The notes under the pieces were generated by a model. That model was not told where the DNA came from. It did not search any database and saw only the letters and a program-made list of their open reading frames with translations. Made by a program: the position numbers and the translations under genes. A stretch of 64,000 bases of DNA from Cyanobacterium aponinum PCC 10605 (GTDB lineage: Bacteria > Cyanobacteriota > Cyanobacteriia > Cyanobacteriales > Cyanobacteriaceae). The stretch lies in the NCBI RefSeq assembly GCF_000317675.1, contig NC_019776.1, positions 1,922,001 through 1,986,000 on the forward strand. Reading direction: 5' to 3'. Below, one piece after another: positions 13,362-60,334 of the stretch (within the stretch, counting starts at the first letter, position 1; every line of letters begins with the position of its first letter).

Positions 13362-13389
13362 GTAGGGGTTGAATATATTCAACCCTTAC
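13362..13389. repeat. 28-nt REP-like palindrome, AT-core type
   Basis: Begins GTAGGGG and ends CCCTTAC around a perfectly symmetric TTGAATATATTCAA core. The same sequence occurs in reverse orientation at 60307-60334. Same total length and outer arms as the GC-core palindromes at 13428 and 44919. Confidence 0.75.
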
Positions 13390-13427: not shown

Positions 13428-13455
13428 GTAGGGGCGAATGGCCATTCGCCCGTAC
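13428..13455. repeat. 28-nt REP-like palindrome, GC-core type
   Basis: Begins GTAGGGG, core CGAATGGCCATTCG, ends CCCGTAC. It differs from the copy inside the transposase gene at 44919-44946 by a compensatory C/G to T/A pair in the core plus one arm base, so pairing of the core stem is kept. Confidence 0.75.
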
Positions 13456-41503: not shown

Positions 41504-44107
41504 TTATACTGGCATACCCAAAATGTCCTCAATTTTCGGCATTTGATCTAAAGGAATTACGCGCCCTTCATCCTCAAATCCGTCAATTTCATTGAAGTTT
41601 AAATAACGGTATAATTCACCCTTGAAAGGATCGATTTTCTCAGAGACGATCGCGCTATATTCTTCCACAGTAGGAATTTTACCCAATAAAGCACAAACTG
41701 CCGCTAACTCAGCACTACCGAGATAAACCCTTGCACCTTTACCCATACGATTGTTAAAGTTACGAGTAGAAGTTGAGAAAACTGTCGCATTATCCTCAAC
41801 CCTTGCCTGATTACCCATACATAAAGAACAACCCGGCATTTCAGTTCTTGCACCTGCCGCCGCAAATACGCCGTAAACCCCTTCATTGCGTAACTGTTGC
41901 TCATCCATACGGGTAGGAGGACAAATCCATAAACGCCCTTTCACTGTACCAGCACCCTCAAGGATTTTTGCCGCCGCACGGTAATGTCCTATATTTGTCA
42001 TACAAGAACCGATGAAAACTTCATCCACTTTATCACCAGCACATTCGCTCATCAGTTTTACATTATCAGGGTCATTAGGAGCGGCAACAATCGGCTCTTT
42101 GATTTCACTTAAATTGACGGTGATAATATCTGCATATTCAGCATTTTCATCCGCAGACATAAGAGAGGGATTCGCTAACCATTCCTCCATCTTGGCAATA
42201 CGGCGCAATAATGTACGTGCATCCTGATAACCCCGTGCGATCATATTCTTCATTAAACTAACGTTAGATCGCAAGTATTCGGCTACGGTTTCTTCACTGA
42301 GTTTAATTGTACTACCAGAACAAGAACGCTCCGCAGTAGCGTCAGTTAACTCGAAAGCCTGTTCCACTTTTAAATCGGGTAAGCCTTCCATTTCCATGAT
42401 ACGCCCGTTAAAGACGTTGATTTTATTCTCCTTGCCAACGGTTAACTTACCTTCCTGCATAGCTACCCAAGGAATAGCGTTAACGATGTCTCGTAAAGTA
42501 ACTCCGGGTTGCAATTCCCCTGTGAATTTGACTAAAACCGACTCAGGCATATCTAAAGGCATCGCCCCCAAAGCCGCCGCAAATGCCACTAAACCTGAAC
42601 CTGCGGGGAAAGAGATACCCAAAGGGAAACGGGTATGAGAATCGCCTCCTGTGCCGACAGTATCAGGTAATAACATTCTATTTAACCATGAGTGAATGAT
42701 ACCATCTCCCGGGCGTAAGGCAACACCGCCACGAGTAGAGAAGAAATCGGGTAATTCTTTATGGGTTTTGATGTCAACGGGTTTAGGATAAGCGGCAGTA
42801 TGGCAGAAGGTTTGTAAGGTTAAATCTGCATTGAATCCTAAACAAGCTAATTCTTTTAATTCGTCTCTTGTCATAGGTCCAGTGGTATCTTGAGAACCTA
42901 CGGTAGTCATTATCGGTTCGCAGGAAGTGCCGGGGCGGATTCCTTCCACACCACAGGCTTTTCCTACCATTTTTTGAGCTAAAGTAAACCCTTTGCCAGT
43001 GTCAGCAGGGGCTTGGGGGCGTACAAATAAGGTGCTAGGCTCTAATCCTAATGCTTGGCGAGTTTTATCGGTTAAGGCACGTCCAATTAAAAGGGGAATG
43101 CGTCCTCCTGCTCTCACTTCGTCTAAAATGGTTTCAGGCTTGAGAGTAAAAGTAGTAATGGTTTCGCCGTTTTCGTCGGTGATTTTGCCTTCGTAGGGAT
43201 AAATAGTGATGACATCCCCTGTATTTAAGTTGGTGACATCGCACTCGATGGGTAATGCTCCAGAATCTTCGGCGGTGTTAAAGAAGATAGGTGCAATCTT
43301 GCCTCCTAAGACATAACCGCCCGACTTTTTATTAGGTACAAAGGGGATTTCTTCTCCTAAATGCCACAAAACGGAATTGATTGCAGACTTACGAGAAGAA
43401 CCTGTACCCACTACGTCACCGACATAAGCCACAGGGTGTCCTTTTTCTTTTAATTTAGCAATGGTTTCTAACCCTTCAGGCATTCTCGATTCCAACATCG
43501 CTAAGGCGTGTAAAGGAATGTCAGGGCGAGTGGTGGCATGGGGAGCGGGGGATAGGTCATCGGTGTTGGTTTCTCCCGGCACTTTAAACACTGTCACGGT
43601 GATGGATTCCGCTACTTTGGGCTTACTGATAAACCATGACGCTTCTGCCCATGCGTCAATTACTTGTTTGGCGTAGGAATTGTTTTCGGATAATTCTAAG
43701 ACATCGTTAAAGGCATCGAAGACTAAGAGGGTTTTACTAAGGGCGTTGGCGGCTTCGGATGCTACGGTATTATCAGCAGATTTTAGTAAACTGACGAGGG
43801 ATTGCACGTTATAACCTCCCATCATTGTACCCAATAAGCTCACTGCTCCTTGTTTGGAGATAATGGGGGATGTTAATTCTCCTTTTGCCACGGCGGTTAA
43901 AAATCCTGCTTTGACGTAGGATGCTTCGTCCACTCCGGGAGGAATGCGATCGCGCAGTAACATCATTAATTCTTCTTTTAATTCCTCTGGGGGATTCTGC
44001 AACATTTCGCACAGGTGTGATGTTTGTTCGGCGTTAAGAGGTAAGGGGGGAATGCCTAATTTGGCTCTTTCTTCAACGTGTTGATGATATGTTTCTAACC
44101 AAGTCAT
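41504..44107 (-). CDS. acnB: Aconitate hydratase B
   Basis: An 867-residue aconitase of the B type, with the HEAT-like domain first (about 1-155), then the swivel domain (about 165-370, with [19 protein letters not shown]), and then the catalytic Fe-S domains. Visible marks: [21 protein letters not shown] and cluster cysteines in [10 protein letters not shown] and [13 protein letters not shown]. It interconverts citrate and isocitrate. ATG at 44107 matches the family N-terminus. It stands alone. Confidence 0.97.
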
Positions 44108-44265
44108 AGTATTTATGCTTATATTTTTTACAATAATTTACTATTTTAAGCATATCAAGGTCATGAACAGGGGTTTTGTATTCAATGTATCGAGTTAAAT
44201 AAAGCTAAATAAAGTTTTACTCATTTGTTATACTTTCTTGTGTAGTTGTTATTAATCAAATTGAC

Positions 44266-44472
44266 ATGGATACGAAAAAACTATTAAAGGCTATAAGTAT
44301 TTTTTTCTTGATTATAGGAGCTTTAGTTATTATTATCTCTTTTGGCTCTGGTTATCCAGCTTTCTCAATTGTTGGCTTATCACAAATGGCTTTAGCGGCT
44401 TTCTTTTTTGTAATAGCAGATTTATCTGAAGATGTGAAAGAAATCAAAAAAATTTTGAAAAATAAATATTAA
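44266..44472 (+). CDS. Small two-helix membrane protein
   Basis: A 68-residue protein with two helices (ISIFFLIIGALVIIISFG and IVGLSQMALAAFFFVIADL) and an acidic/basic C-terminal helix (SEDVKEIKKILKNKY). No family recognised. The codon use is like neighbouring genes and the ATG is followed by a clean reading frame to TAA. No neighbour gives a functional clue. Confidence 0.5.
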   Translation: MDTKKLLKAISIFFLIIGALVIIISFGSGYPAFSIVGLSQMALAAFFFVIADLSEDVKEIKKILKNKY

Positions 44473-44627
44473 ACCAACATTTATTAAATTTATTCATACT
44501 TGACTGAATTTAATTTACCAGTATCCATAATTGAACCCTAAATGACTTACTACGAACTTAAGGGCGATCGCATCTTTTGAGTAAAAAAAAATAACTTAGT
44601 TTACAATAAAATCTAAAATAATTAATT

Positions 44628-45206
44628 ATGAAATATAACCCTGATATACATAAACGTCAATCAATTCGTTTAAAAGGATATGATTATTCTCAATCAGGAT
44701 TTTATTTTATTACCATTTGTTGTTATGAACGTCAATGTTTATTTGGTGAAATTATTAATCATCAAATAATCTTAAATAATTTTGGTGAATTGGTAAAAGA
44801 AGAATGGTTAAAATCAGCAGAAATTAGAAGAGAAATTGAATTAGATGAATTTGTTATTATGCCTAATCATTTTCATGGAATTGTAATTATTGATCAACAA
44901 ATAAATAAAAATATTGTAGTAGGGGCGAACGGCCGTTCGCCCCTACAAACCATTCAATCATCACAGCAACGAATATCAATGAAACCTAAATCATTATCTT
45001 CATTGATAGCTGGTTTTAAATCAGCAACAACTAAAAGAATTAATATTATTCGTGATACACCTAAAAATCCCGTTTGGCAACGTAATTATTATGAGCATAT
45101 CATTAAAAATGATCCATCTTTAGAAAGAATTAAAGAATATATACAAAATAATTCTTTATCGTGGGAAAATGATCAATTACATCCTAATAATCCTTCTAAA
45201 TGGTAA
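44628..45206 (+). CDS. REP-associated tyrosine transposase (RAYT, Y1 HUH family)
   Basis: A 192-residue single-domain Y1 transposase. It starts with the family phrase RQSIRLKGYDYSQSGFYFIT, has the HUH metal site in MPNHFHGI (His-x-His), and the catalytic Tyr in VWQRNYYEHI. RAYT proteins cut and join DNA at REP palindromes and are usually single-copy, domesticated genes. In the middle the reading frame runs straight through a perfect 28-nt palindrome (44919-44946) that encodes VGANGRSPL, so the gene carries a copy of the sequence it may act on. Confidence 0.88.
   Translation: MKYNPDIHKRQSIRLKGYDYSQSGFYFITICCYERQCLFGEIINHQIILNNFGELVKEEWLKSAEIRREIELDEFVIMPNHFHGIVIIDQQINKNIVVGANGRSPLQTIQSSQQRISMKPKSLSSLIAGFKSATTKRINIIRDTPKNPVWQRNYYEHIIKNDPSLERIKEYIQNNSLSWENDQLHPNNPSKW
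44919..44946. repeat. Perfect 28-nt REP-like palindrome inside the RAYT gene
   Basis: Begins GTAGGGG, core CGAACGGCCGTTCG, ends CCCCTAC, perfectly self-complementary. It is in frame and coding. The same outer arms occur in the intergenic palindromes at 13362, 13428 and 60307. Confidence 0.85.
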
Positions 45207-45441
45207 TAATAATATGGCTTATTAGAAGAGATTAGATCGCATTTCTTAAGTGTGGGAGGTGCGTACTGCGTAGCAGATCCCTTCAGGGTCTAGTTTATTA
45301 TAAAATATAAGTTAGAATGAATAAAAATATGGTAATGAGATTTTAAATATGACGACAAAATCAGCAGAAATTAAAGAAATTATTTTTCAAACTCCTCCAG
45401 AATAAATAAATCAATTAATATGAAAAAATAGAAAAAAGACA

Positions 45442-46011
45442 TCAAATTAAATTGCAAGAAATAAGACGAGAAAAGAAAAATGTAACCATTTTTAACCCAT
45501 AGGGAGATTTCCACCAGTGAGCAGGAAAACAACCATCAGGGGCAGATAAACTAAAATCCCAATCATCATATTCAGAAAATCTGGGTTGTTTATTCTCGTT
45601 TAACCATCCTACTTTGTCTGCAAACTTCGTTAAAACTTTGACATCTTGAGCCCTAATGGTATCAATATCACCCCCCGCCTCATAATAATTTTTTAATTGT
45701 ACTCCGAAACTGAATTTCCCACTACTATACTTATACCACATTTGATCTATAACCTGTAGAGAGTTACACGGGTACTTACTAACATCTTCGGGAGAGAGGG
45801 TTTCTCTTTGTTCTCCTGCTACTTCTAACATTATTCTAGTGGTTTCTATATCTGCTTCTCGAAAATCCTTATTTTTTAAAAATTTTTGTAATGTACCGTA
45901 TCTAGCAATATCTGGTAGTAAAATAAATTGTTCTTGTAATTCTTCAATCAGATTTGTTAAGCGACTGATTTCAGTTTCCAATTTTTGTACACGGACTTCA
46001 ATATCGTTCAT
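45442..46011 (-). CDS. GUN4-domain protein
   Basis: A 189-residue protein. The N-terminal coiled coil (QKLETEISRLTNLIEELQEQ) precedes a GUN4 domain seen in IDQMWYKYSSGKFSFGVQLK and the final DFSLSAPDGCFPAHWW. GUN4 domains bind porphyrins; the canonical Gun4 stimulates Mg-chelatase. Here the fold is small and the C-terminal tail (LKMVTFFFSRLISCNLI) is unusual, and may be read-through into former noncoding sequence. It is probably not the canonical gun4. Possible sensor or regulator of tetrapyrrole state (inference). Confidence 0.7.
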   Translation of the reverse strand: MNDIEVRVQKLETEISRLTNLIEELQEQFILLPDIARYGTLQKFLKNKDFREADIETTRIMLEVAGEQRETLSPEDVSKYPCNSLQVIDQMWYKYSSGKFSFGVQLKNYYEAGGDIDTIRAQDVKVLTKFADKVGWLNENKQPRFSEYDDWDFSLSAPDGCFPAHWWKSPYGLKMVTFFFSRLISCNLI

Positions 46012-46044
46012 AATGGGGAAATATTAACTGATTTTCTTTATAGG

Positions 46045-48318
46045 TTATCTTATTTCGTTAGAAATTAATCCTAATATTCTTGTATTGGTAACTCTTAATT
46101 GTTCATAAACGTGCCTCAATTCATAATCTTTAGTGCTACCAATTTTGACCACGAGAATTAATCCATTTGTTTGAGATGCTATTATTTTACCGTCAGAAAA
46201 ACTTAATAAAGAAGGACTATCATAAATAATCAAATCAAACTGTTGAGACGCTTGTATTTGTTGCATCATCGTGGACATTGCTTGACTATACAATAAGCTA
46301 CTTGGATCTGACAATACTTCTCCCACGGTGATAATAGAAAGGTTATCCCATTGACTGGGAGATTGAATCGCATTTTGCCAAGGAATTTTGCCTGTAAGGA
46401 TATGAGTTAGACCTTGATTATTGTCAACATTTACTAATATATGCAATTGAGGTAGTCGAAAATCTGTATCTATTAATAATACTTTTTGTCCCATACTAGT
46501 GGCTACCTTGGCAAGATTTAAGCTAATAGTTGATTTACCTTCTCTGGGAATGGAAGAACTAATAACAACAGATTTTGAGGGTAAATTGGGGGTTAATAAA
46601 CTAATATTTGTGTAAAGATTACGGAAGGATTCTAAACTAGAAGATAGTGAAAGTTTGTCTTTTTCTAATGATTCTTTCTGAGGAGAATTAGAGGTAAAAA
46701 AAGCGGGAATATTTTGTTTTTTAGTAGTTAAATTAATATTTTTATCAAAAGGTATTTCTGCTAAGATAGGCAGTTGAGTAACTGTTTTTAGTTTTTTAAC
46801 ATCGTAAATACTGCGATCGCATTTATCTATAATTGAAGCAACCACCGTACCAAAAGTTAAACCCCCGAATAAACCGAATAACAGATTGTAAAGAGGAATG
46901 GGATAAACAGGACTTTCTCCCACTTGAGGAGGAGAGATAATTTGCCAATTAAGATTATTTTGAATATTATTTAACTCTAGTTTTTCTCTTGTTTCTAAGA
47001 AGCGCTTTAAACTTTCTGTCGAGGTATTTAATTCTCTTTGTAAATTATTATATTCACGAGTAACGGCGGGTAAACTGGCAATTCTTTGGTTAAGGTTATC
47101 TAATACTTTTTGTAAACTATCTTTTTTACTATTTAAAACTTTAATTTCGTCTCTTTTTGCAATTAAATCTTGAGTTAATTTATCCCTCATTTTACTAGGA
47201 ATTGCGATCGCTTCTTGTAGATTCTTTTGATTGTTATTTCTTAAAGAGTATCTAGCTTTCTCTTGCTCTATTAAATTAAGAATATTATTTTGTTTGTCTT
47301 TTAAGGTAATAATTTGTGGACTTAAATCTGTAAAAACTGCCGACTGTTTCGCCAATTCAATTTCAATTTCTTGTAACTGTTTTAATAAGTTTTGATACCT
47401 TGGTGATTCTGTTAAATAACTAAGTGCGATCGCATCTTCAGGAGATAATTTAAGATTTTGTTGAATACTATTATAAGCCGATTCTGCTTCTTGAATTTGT
47501 ATTTGAGTGGCAAAGAATTCCTTTTCTGTAGCAACTAATTGTTGGGTTAATTCCGTTGCTTGAATTTGTGGATCAATAAATTTATAATCGGTTCTTAACT
47601 TTTCTATTTTTGTTTGTAAATTATTAATATTTTTTTCTAAAATAGGTATCTGACTACGAACAAATTTTAAGCCTTCTCCAATATTTTGCTCTCCTGAATT
47701 CAGTCCATTTTCTAAATATTCAGAAGCAATAGTATCTAACACAAAAGCTATTTTTTCAGGATCTTCATCTCGAAAACTAACCTCAATTAGTTTGGTTTTA
47801 TCCAATTGTTTTATATCCAAATTCTCTAAATTCTGTAAATTAATATCCTCATAAATATCTGGATAACGATCAGAAATTTCCTTTAAAATAGGACTTAAAA
47901 CACTAGCACTACCTAATATTTGAACTTCTGTACTATAGTCAATATTAGTATTTGTATTTCCTCCATCAAGCCCAGTTCCAAGTTGATTTTGCTGTGTTTG
48001 GCTTTCCATGGGTTTTTCTACTAACAACATGAATTTACCCTGATAAATAGGAGATTGTTGAAAAGTCCACCAAGTCACCCCAGTTGTGACTCCCAAGGTT
48101 GCACCCAAAATAAAAGCCCAACGCCTTTTGAATAATTCTAATAAATAGGGAGTCTTACCGTTATCTTCTTCTTGAGATTGTTCTTTTTTCTCCAAATTAT
48201 TTTCCAATGCTGAAAGAGAAGGGACAAAACCTTGATTTATTTCTCCTGAAGCAAAAGAATTTTTATCGTAATTATTAGACTTAGAAAAAGAAGAAATATT
48301 AGACTTTTCTGGTAACAT
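46045..48318 (-). CDS. Wzc-like polysaccharide co-polymerase/BY-kinase, no tyrosine tail
   Basis: A 757-residue inner-membrane protein. Two membrane helices (about 70-90 and about 470-490) enclose a Wzz domain and long coiled coils. The C-terminal kinase-like ATPase has ISSSIPREGKSTISLNLAKV (Walker A, Lys595), VLLIDTDFRLPQLH (Walker A') and FDLIIYDSPSLL (Walker B). BY-kinases end in a tyrosine cluster; this one ends TRILGLISNEIR with no such cluster. It would work with the Wza-like gene encoded just upstream to build surface polysaccharide. ATG 48318; a TTG lies two codons earlier. Confidence 0.87.
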   Translation of the reverse strand: MLPEKSNISSFSKSNNYDKNSFASGEINQGFVPSLSALENNLEKKEQSQEEDNGKTPYLLELFKRRWAFILGATLGVTTGVTWWTFQQSPIYQGKFMLLVEKPMESQTQQNQLGTGLDGGNTNTNIDYSTEVQILGSASVLSPILKEISDRYPDIYEDINLQNLENLDIKQLDKTKLIEVSFRDEDPEKIAFVLDTIASEYLENGLNSGEQNIGEGLKFVRSQIPILEKNINNLQTKIEKLRTDYKFIDPQIQATELTQQLVATEKEFFATQIQIQEAESAYNSIQQNLKLSPEDAIALSYLTESPRYQNLLKQLQEIEIELAKQSAVFTDLSPQIITLKDKQNNILNLIEQEKARYSLRNNNQKNLQEAIAIPSKMRDKLTQDLIAKRDEIKVLNSKKDSLQKVLDNLNQRIASLPAVTREYNNLQRELNTSTESLKRFLETREKLELNNIQNNLNWQIISPPQVGESPVYPIPLYNLLFGLFGGLTFGTVVASIIDKCDRSIYDVKKLKTVTQLPILAEIPFDKNINLTTKKQNIPAFFTSNSPQKESLEKDKLSLSSSLESFRNLYTNISLLTPNLPSKSVVISSSIPREGKSTISLNLAKVATSMGQKVLLIDTDFRLPQLHILVNVDNNQGLTHILTGKIPWQNAIQSPSQWDNLSIITVGEVLSDPSSLLYSQAMSTMMQQIQASQQFDLIIYDSPSLLSFSDGKIIASQTNGLILVVKIGSTKDYELRHVYEQLRVTNTRILGLISNEIR

Positions 48319-60306: not shown

Positions 60307-60334
60307 GTAAGGGTTGAATATATTCAACCCCTAC
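60307..60334. repeat. 28-nt REP-like palindrome, AT-core type (reverse copy)
   Basis: Reads GTAAGGG at the left end, core TTGAATATATTCAA, ends CCCCTAC. It is the reverse complement of the palindrome at 13362-13389, and a few flanking bases (ACCGTAA and CTACCACCTG) are also shared. Confidence 0.75.

Follow-up and report, generated by a model that had tools for sequence, protein, structure and literature searches.

An in-frame REP palindrome inside a RAYT transposase gene of Cyanobacterium aponinum PCC 10605, possibly inherited and kept as DNA

Introduction

Two published accounts come closest to the locus described here, one of REPs inside tnpA_REP genes and one of intragenic REPs in general, the latter a BMC Genomics paper of 2013 by Di Nocera as first author. 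Quentin et al. 2018 (PMC6006769) describe in-frame REP insertions in the tnpA_REP genes of subclass 2.4, located for the most part in the interval from HuH to Y, and state that such insertions predominate in this subclass. The 2013 paper (PMC3733652) covers intragenic GTAG and CGTC REPs, including the cyanobacterial families GTAG-12, -15 and -16, and describes the CGTC repeats as having no association with transposase genes; it also cites the Rickettsia palindromic elements (RPEs), palindromic repeats that lie in frame in protein genes. For other TnpA_REPs, a study in NAR 2021 (PMC8266576) reports that both GTAG and the palindrome take part when single-stranded REPs are recognized and cleaved, and that their relative weights vary from system to system.

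Here we analyze a window of 64,000 nt from the genome of C. aponinum PCC 10605, in which a RAYT / TnpA_REP gene on the + strand carries a REP within its own reading frame. The phenomenon is already published, and the window case is a further example of it. Like the insertions in the available text of Quentin et al. 2018 (PMC6006769), the elements considered here are in-frame double-foot GT[AG]G palindromes found in cyanobacteria and other phyla; the counts against a control, the frame analysis, the compensating changes and the gene as the only copy go beyond that text and come from the present comparison. With the REPs described in PMC3733652 they share the GTAG tag and the in-frame position in coding genes, but those REPs lie in many unrelated genes, whereas the window type is concentrated in the gene of the presumed mobilizing enzyme. 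The RPEs differ in being CGTC-tagged where typed and in occupying many different genes, again according to PMC3733652. The E. coli REPtron (structure 4er8) shares with the window protein the fold family and the presumed GTAG-recognition motif; its REPs flank the TnpA_REP gene, whereas in the window the REP is inside and no palindrome of score ≥9 lies within ~1.6 kb outside.

Results

The ORF at 44628–45206 (+ strand) is intact and encodes an HuH Y1 transposase of 192 aa. A profile search identifies it as a Y1 transposase (Pfam Y1_Tnp, E 1.9e-9), the TnpA_REP structure 4er8 matches it both by profile (E 7.3e-7) and by fold (E 1.4e-6), and the best matches in the fold comparison are the IS608 and ISDra2 transposases. 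The NCBIfam model REP_Tyr_transpos (NF047646) matches with an E of 3.8e-18 and 65.8 bits, a score that does not reach the curated cut-off of 80 bits. Among the matches listed, the three best loci for NF047646 are of the PDHLH kind. This model seems better suited to another RAYT subclass, so that membership of the window protein rests on its fold, its motifs and the match to 4er8.

Of the HuH motif H81-F-H83 (NHFH at residues 80–83; 44868–44876, + strand), both histidines are invariant in 64 aligned rows, as are W150 and Q151 of the motif WQRNYYEH (residues 150–157; 45075–45098, + strand). From the pattern W-Q-x4-E-H and PMC6006769, we infer that WQRNYYEH is the equivalent of the GTAG-contact region W94–H101 of E. 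coli TnpA_REP. The presumed catalytic tyrosine, Y171 (YIQNN; 45138–45140, + strand), is near-invariant in the same rows and lies in the YIxNNP motif of subclass 2.4. The protein combines HuH with a single catalytic tyrosine in a Y-x3-NP context and has the subclass 2.4 features NH[IFV]H, WQ, YIxNNP, a variable insertion after the HuH strand and an internal REP, save that NS replaces the usual NP. On comparison with Table 1 of PMC6006769, these motifs together with the internal REP make the window gene one of the subclass 2.4 type.

A variable loop (residues ~91–122; 44898–44993, + strand) connects the HuH strand to the conserved helix that comes next and is modeled mostly with low confidence: the mean pLDDT is 66 for residues 91–100, 54 for 101–110 and 62 for 111–120, and at least 93 in the blocks 21–90 and 121–180. 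Inside this loop is a perfect 28-nt palindrome, GTAGGGGCGAACGG/CCGTTCGCCCCTAC (44919–44946), of 14+14 nt with no mismatch, which codes for VGANGRSPL and the first base of the following codon; the residues that it encodes, 98–106, fall within the stretch of mean pLDDT 54–66. A GTAG foot adjoins the stem on both sides, making the element a double-foot GTAG REP. The sequence-only reading had reported a REP carried in frame within a RAYT gene as a perfect 28-nt palindrome encoding VGANGRSPL, and both statements are borne out by the palindrome itself and the intact Y1 ORF around it. The chance of a perfect 28-nt palindrome is 4^-14 per position, or ~2e-4 in 64 kb, and the in-gene sequence at ≤3 mismatches was present in 0 of 100 shuffles. 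No other palindrome of score ≥9 was found within 43000–47000, and the window gene thus lacks the usual flanking REPs.

Transposases of this kind prefer nearby DNA, and REPs may often land near their own transposase gene. The palindrome could be a passive insertion into a loop that tolerates stop-free inserts, without function and in slow decay, an account that we consider a real possibility if a somewhat improbable one. The low confidence of the loop in the structure model favors it, as do the presence of REPs in many unrelated genes (PMC3733652) and the little impact on the protein suggested by Quentin et al. 2018 (PMC6006769).

In single-stranded DNA, the palindrome forms a hairpin with a 12-bp stem and a 4-nt loop; the energy over 56 nt is −14.4 kcal/mol (z −6.2), and the RNA fold of the 148-nt region around it has a z of −3.3. 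The latter value would suit a hairpin of 12 bp and a 4-nt loop in the transcript that tunes RAYT expression, with or without protein binding. The DNA hairpin is equally evident, however, and G.U pairs on the sense strand are not favored, there being 5 A.C/C.A and 2 G.T/T.G mismatches, admittedly small numbers, in 69 in-gene palindromes. Nor is the hairpin a standard terminator, a reading that was rejected because the sequence 3′ of it has no T run. We regard a role at the mRNA level as improbable. The self-regulation raised in the sequence-only reading, in which the enzyme would bind or cut its own gene or mRNA, stays a hypothetical role to which the mismatch counts lend no support on the mRNA side.

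Relatives of the gene were gathered by a family search, by a class search that matched 155 of 388 genomes, by scanning named genomes (the best 80 of 584 relatives) and from 2 viral loci. The class search gave 28 loci and, among the matches listed, 67 further stretches that cover most of the query, partial matches being omitted. In total, 165 RAYT ORFs were parsed, of which 160 are distinct (5 duplicates), and 35 of 200 ORF hits had no parsed motif. A loop palindrome of score ≥11 occurs in 81 of the 160 distinct RAYTs, 33 of 84 in the class and family set and 48 of 74 in the contigs of named genomes, both samples having been picked by likeness to the query and hence being non-random. Codon-shuffled loops contain 0.3 such palindromes on average, and palindromes of this score were seen before HuH in 9 of 160 and after W in 3 of 160; when weaker, GGG..CCC-like palindromes (score ≥7) are included, 106 of 160 have one.

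The 160 RAYT ORFs (103 kb) contain 69 GTAG palindromes, whereas 749 other ORFs with a length of 150 aa or more (868 kb) contain 9, and at least one of those 9 (at locus L152) lies within a further, unparsed RAYT ORF. A further 2 lie at the edges of ORFs, and the rest of the DNA has 43. In RAYTs of the NF047646 kind, which served as a control set, a GTAG palindrome was found in 0 of 26 parsed genes (4 of 30 loci were unparsed), and the RAYT loci on viral contigs, L174 and L175, have none. A strong palindrome is missing from 79 of the 160 relatives, and some near relatives (L041, L046 and L050) have decayed ones, so the palindrome is dispensable rather than essential. Such frequent absence and decay among relatives would be expected of a passively inserted element, as would the non-REP palindrome of 37 nt (ATCGATCATTCTGATCGATTT...) that occupies the same loop in L049. 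At another locus, L038 (G316:C1:3823293-3823871), the palindrome inside the gene is longer, perfect over 48 nt with arms that continue beyond the REP, and in the clade of L142, L215, L222 and L228 the feet GTAGAGAC/GTCTCTAC are matched and replace GTAGGGGC/GCCCCTAC.

Among the relatives, the two stop-free frames of the palindrome are used 37:30, the third being absent by construction in that it puts the TAG of the foot in frame and the ORF would go unparsed. Identical 28-mers are read in different frames in L105/L109, in L062 and L112/L098, and in L109/L150. The two commonest palindrome peptides, VGANGRSP and RGGSRTAP, are each encoded by one DNA sequence, in 8 of 8 genes among the 160 relatives and in 6 of 6 genes, respectively; the 8 VGANGRSP genes come from 7 loci and are not all independent, since both sister species are among them and one genome contributes two copies. 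Same-residue codons outside the palindrome agree in 1374 of 2847 cases in pairs below 90% identity that were chosen by a shared palindrome. Two DNA forms each were found for RGTARRAP (4 genes), VGATRRVA (3 genes) and VGARSPRP (3 occurrences), and we count the differences in VGATRRVA and VGARSPRP against the idea of an inherited REP. For GAGLKPAP (L139, L164, L190 and L194), GGGGCGGG..CCCGCCCC is used in 2 genes and GGGGCAGG..CCTGCCCC in 1, and the fourth is intermediate; this change is silent on both sides and restores the base pair, which argues against passive insertion.

The recurrence of VGANGRSP in 8 genes might be taken to mean that VGANGRSPL has a function as a peptide, the palindrome being incidental to it. 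All 8 genes use the same DNA, however, identical 28-mers of other types give other peptides when read in another frame, related genes have the palindrome with quite different peptides, and the pLDDT of the loop is low. A peptide conserved over non-palindromic DNA, the outcome that the sequence-only reading had named as fatal to itself, was not found among these genes. Conservation at the protein level is thus highly improbable, and we rejected it in view of the one DNA sequence behind VGANGRSP and the use of the same 28-mer in two frames; on the same two grounds, the sequence comparison indicates that the conserved entity is the DNA rather than the peptide.

We compared the palindromes, and 200 shuffles, with a quickly built tree of 156 proteins from which the loop had been removed (L160, L171, L220 and one of two in L176 were left off for a short loop or N-part); a GTAG palindrome had been called for 67 of the 156. 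The central bases require 28 changes (shuffles mean 47.7, minimum 44), the frame 12 (mean 21.8, minimum 16), the presence of the palindrome 30 (mean 51.1, minimum 42) and the whole palindrome 47 (mean 57.6, minimum 53). On this tree, the central bases follow the proteins. Exact 28-mers are common to RAYTs from separate genera and even phyla, with 44–74% identity between the proteins outside the loop, an observation that speaks against slow decay of a functionless insert.

Paired changes were scored in two clades chosen after the tree was seen; the cells counted are not independent events. In the supported clade A (11 rows, 99), all 11 have a TCGCGA centre and all 10 with a called palindrome use frame 1, the eleventh (L059) having a damaged foot. 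Two stem pairs are changed on both sides, in 6 cells, with a covariation score of 0.155; neither the cell count nor the score is reached in 500 shuffles (0/500), and 99/500 reach the number of such pairs and 11/500 that of further pair types. Clade B comprises relatives of the window gene, in 15 of 20 rows (L044, L048, L049, L052 and L096 were omitted as decayed or without a REP), and likewise has 2 pairs changed on both sides, in 6 cells, with a score of 0.140. Cells and score are again reached in 0/500 shuffles, and 162/500 reach the number of pairs and 162/500 the further pair types; two of the five covariation measures are therefore unremarkable in the window gene's own group. When partners are slid by one to three columns, there are at most 2 both-side cells in clade A and at most 1 in clade B, and one slid version of clade A has 5 further pair types versus 4 in the true structure. 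Cell counts above all shuffles in two clades of constant frame speak against a passive insertion, whereas covariation that is not exceptional at the level of pairs is what such an insertion would give. Where a genome has such copies (e.g., L153 and L154), paired changes could also be mimicked if the in-gene palindrome were overwritten from a genomic REP or if such a REP inserted again.

The sequence-only reading had further matched the arms of the in-gene palindrome to three palindromes in the window that are intergenic in the sense of lying outside ATG-started ORFs of at least 60 aa. The match stands for 13428–13455, a REP of a related genomic family (GAATGGCCATTC core) with feet GTAG and GTAC and 3/28 mismatches to the in-gene palindrome. 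It fails for 13362–13389 and 60307–60334, which have little beyond the feet in common with it and look like members of another REP family (TTGAA..TTCAA, core TTGAATATATTCAA). A second RAYT of the same kind in this genome (L034, G000:C1:298882-299397) has no internal palindrome; a palindrome GGGTTGAACACTGTTCAACCC lies ~1.4 kb off and GGGCAGAATAATATTCTGCCC nearby. Because GGGTTGAACACTGTTCAACCC resembles the window palindromes at 13362 and 60307, L034 may be the partner of the TTGAA..TTCAA family.

A genome-wide count of the palindromes, which the sequence-only reading had called for, finds the exact in-gene 28-mer once in the genome of the window (G000, 4.18 Mb), together with eight further perfect or near-perfect double-foot palindromes, all with a different core. 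REP stems of the GGGCRAAYGGCCRTTYGCCC type number 93 in G000 versus 4 in the sister species (G014), in-gene copies counted, and those in G000 are, among the matches listed, mostly one base pair off the in-gene copy. That the numerous REPs of G000 have a core slightly unlike the in-gene palindrome counts against its being an inherited REP. All 19 of the 19 G000 copies examined lie outside ORFs of at least 100 aa, 17 with a GGGCRAAYGGCCRTTYGCCC-type stem and two with a one-base variant.

The sister species has the same RAYT gene at a collinear locus, with an identical 28-mer; the two loci are 94.0% identical over 2129 nt and then 95.8% over 619 nt, and a stretch of unequal length directly upstream of the RAYT gene is unaligned. 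Given 93 versus 4 stems and identical in-gene 28-mers, the genomic REP number rose or fell between the two species while the in-gene copy remained unchanged. Right before the 5′ foot of the palindrome, at 44916–44919, comparison with locus L028 reveals an indel (NKNIV in G000, NKNIENHQN in G014), which might be the trace of a cut-and-join event.

In 9 genomes, we searched for single copies with a pattern of the window-gene kind that combines a ACGGCCGT centre with both feet. It matched once each in 5 of the 9 (G000, G014, G087, G316 and G176), always inside the RAYT gene, and 3 to 6 times in the remaining 4. A double-foot pattern matched once in 4 of the 21 genomes behind named loci (G397, G398, G400 and G415), where the lone match is the in-gene one since each locus carries one in its RAYT, and 2 to 79 times in the other 17. 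In a third set of 11 genomes, G103 has one match, G320, G294, G223 and G148 have 6 to 19, and G156 has ~71 that are, among the matches listed, mostly one compensated pair off the in-gene copy; 5 of the 11 are without a pattern match, and at least one of these (G150, locus L062) has an in-gene palindrome outside the pattern. Several genomes thus hold no other pattern match that could supply a re-insertion, a further point against passive insertion. Among the genes with an internal palindrome, 59 have flanks of 600 bp or more on both sides; in 36 of these 59, no copy of the 20-nt core of the palindrome (≤3 mismatches) lies within 1 kb.

The RAYT of G294 (L055), a genome of the same class as G000, and the RAYT on a Nodosilinea contig (L103) are identical. 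In G102:C1:69144-73785, three RAYT copies with a palindrome in each are packed into 4.6 kb, one match having an internal stop, and in another copy the palindrome is altered on one side alone.

Discussion

Our tentative preference, to which we give somewhat less than an even chance, is for an inherited, gene-borne REP that is kept at the DNA level and is perhaps the enzyme's own putative target. In its favor are the position in the loop, the use of both open frames and an abundance above that in other genes and in the remainder of the RAYT gene, as well as the single DNA sequence behind each of the two commonest peptides, the same DNA read in two frames and the clade-specific cores. It also draws on the paired compensating changes, on the genomes in which the in-gene palindrome is the only pattern match, on the lack of a flanking copy in 36/59 genes, and on the same 28-mer in both sister species despite 93 versus 4 stems. 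It is weakened by pair-level measures of covariation that are not exceptional and by the 30 changes in presence on the tree. Taken together, the comparison points to a palindrome that is passed on and maintained as DNA and not to a passing insertion, and the evidence added here appears to shift the case from a tolerated insertion towards an inherited DNA element.

An inherited REP of this sort would go back to an ancestral gene into which a double-foot REP inserted, within the poorly ordered loop that separates the HuH motif from the helix after it. The insert would have been read in either of the two frames in which the TAG of the foot is no stop. Thereafter it would have been inherited with the gene, its palindromic state being kept as DNA. 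The reason for its retention would be that, when single-stranded, for example on the lagging strand, the hairpin could serve as the enzyme's own recognition site in cis; target and enzyme would then travel together and might seed REPs in a new host.

A broader proposal, possible but in our view unlikely in full, is that subclass 2.4 RAYTs have internalized their own recognition site as a selected, portable cis target, one that would move across phyla with the gene, persist through compensating mutations while constrained both as coding sequence and as hairpin, and found new REP families in each host. A single stretch of DNA would here be under coding and hairpin constraint at once. A gene with its own REP inside would provide a direct test case for the origin of REPs and for the matching of RAYTs to their REPs.
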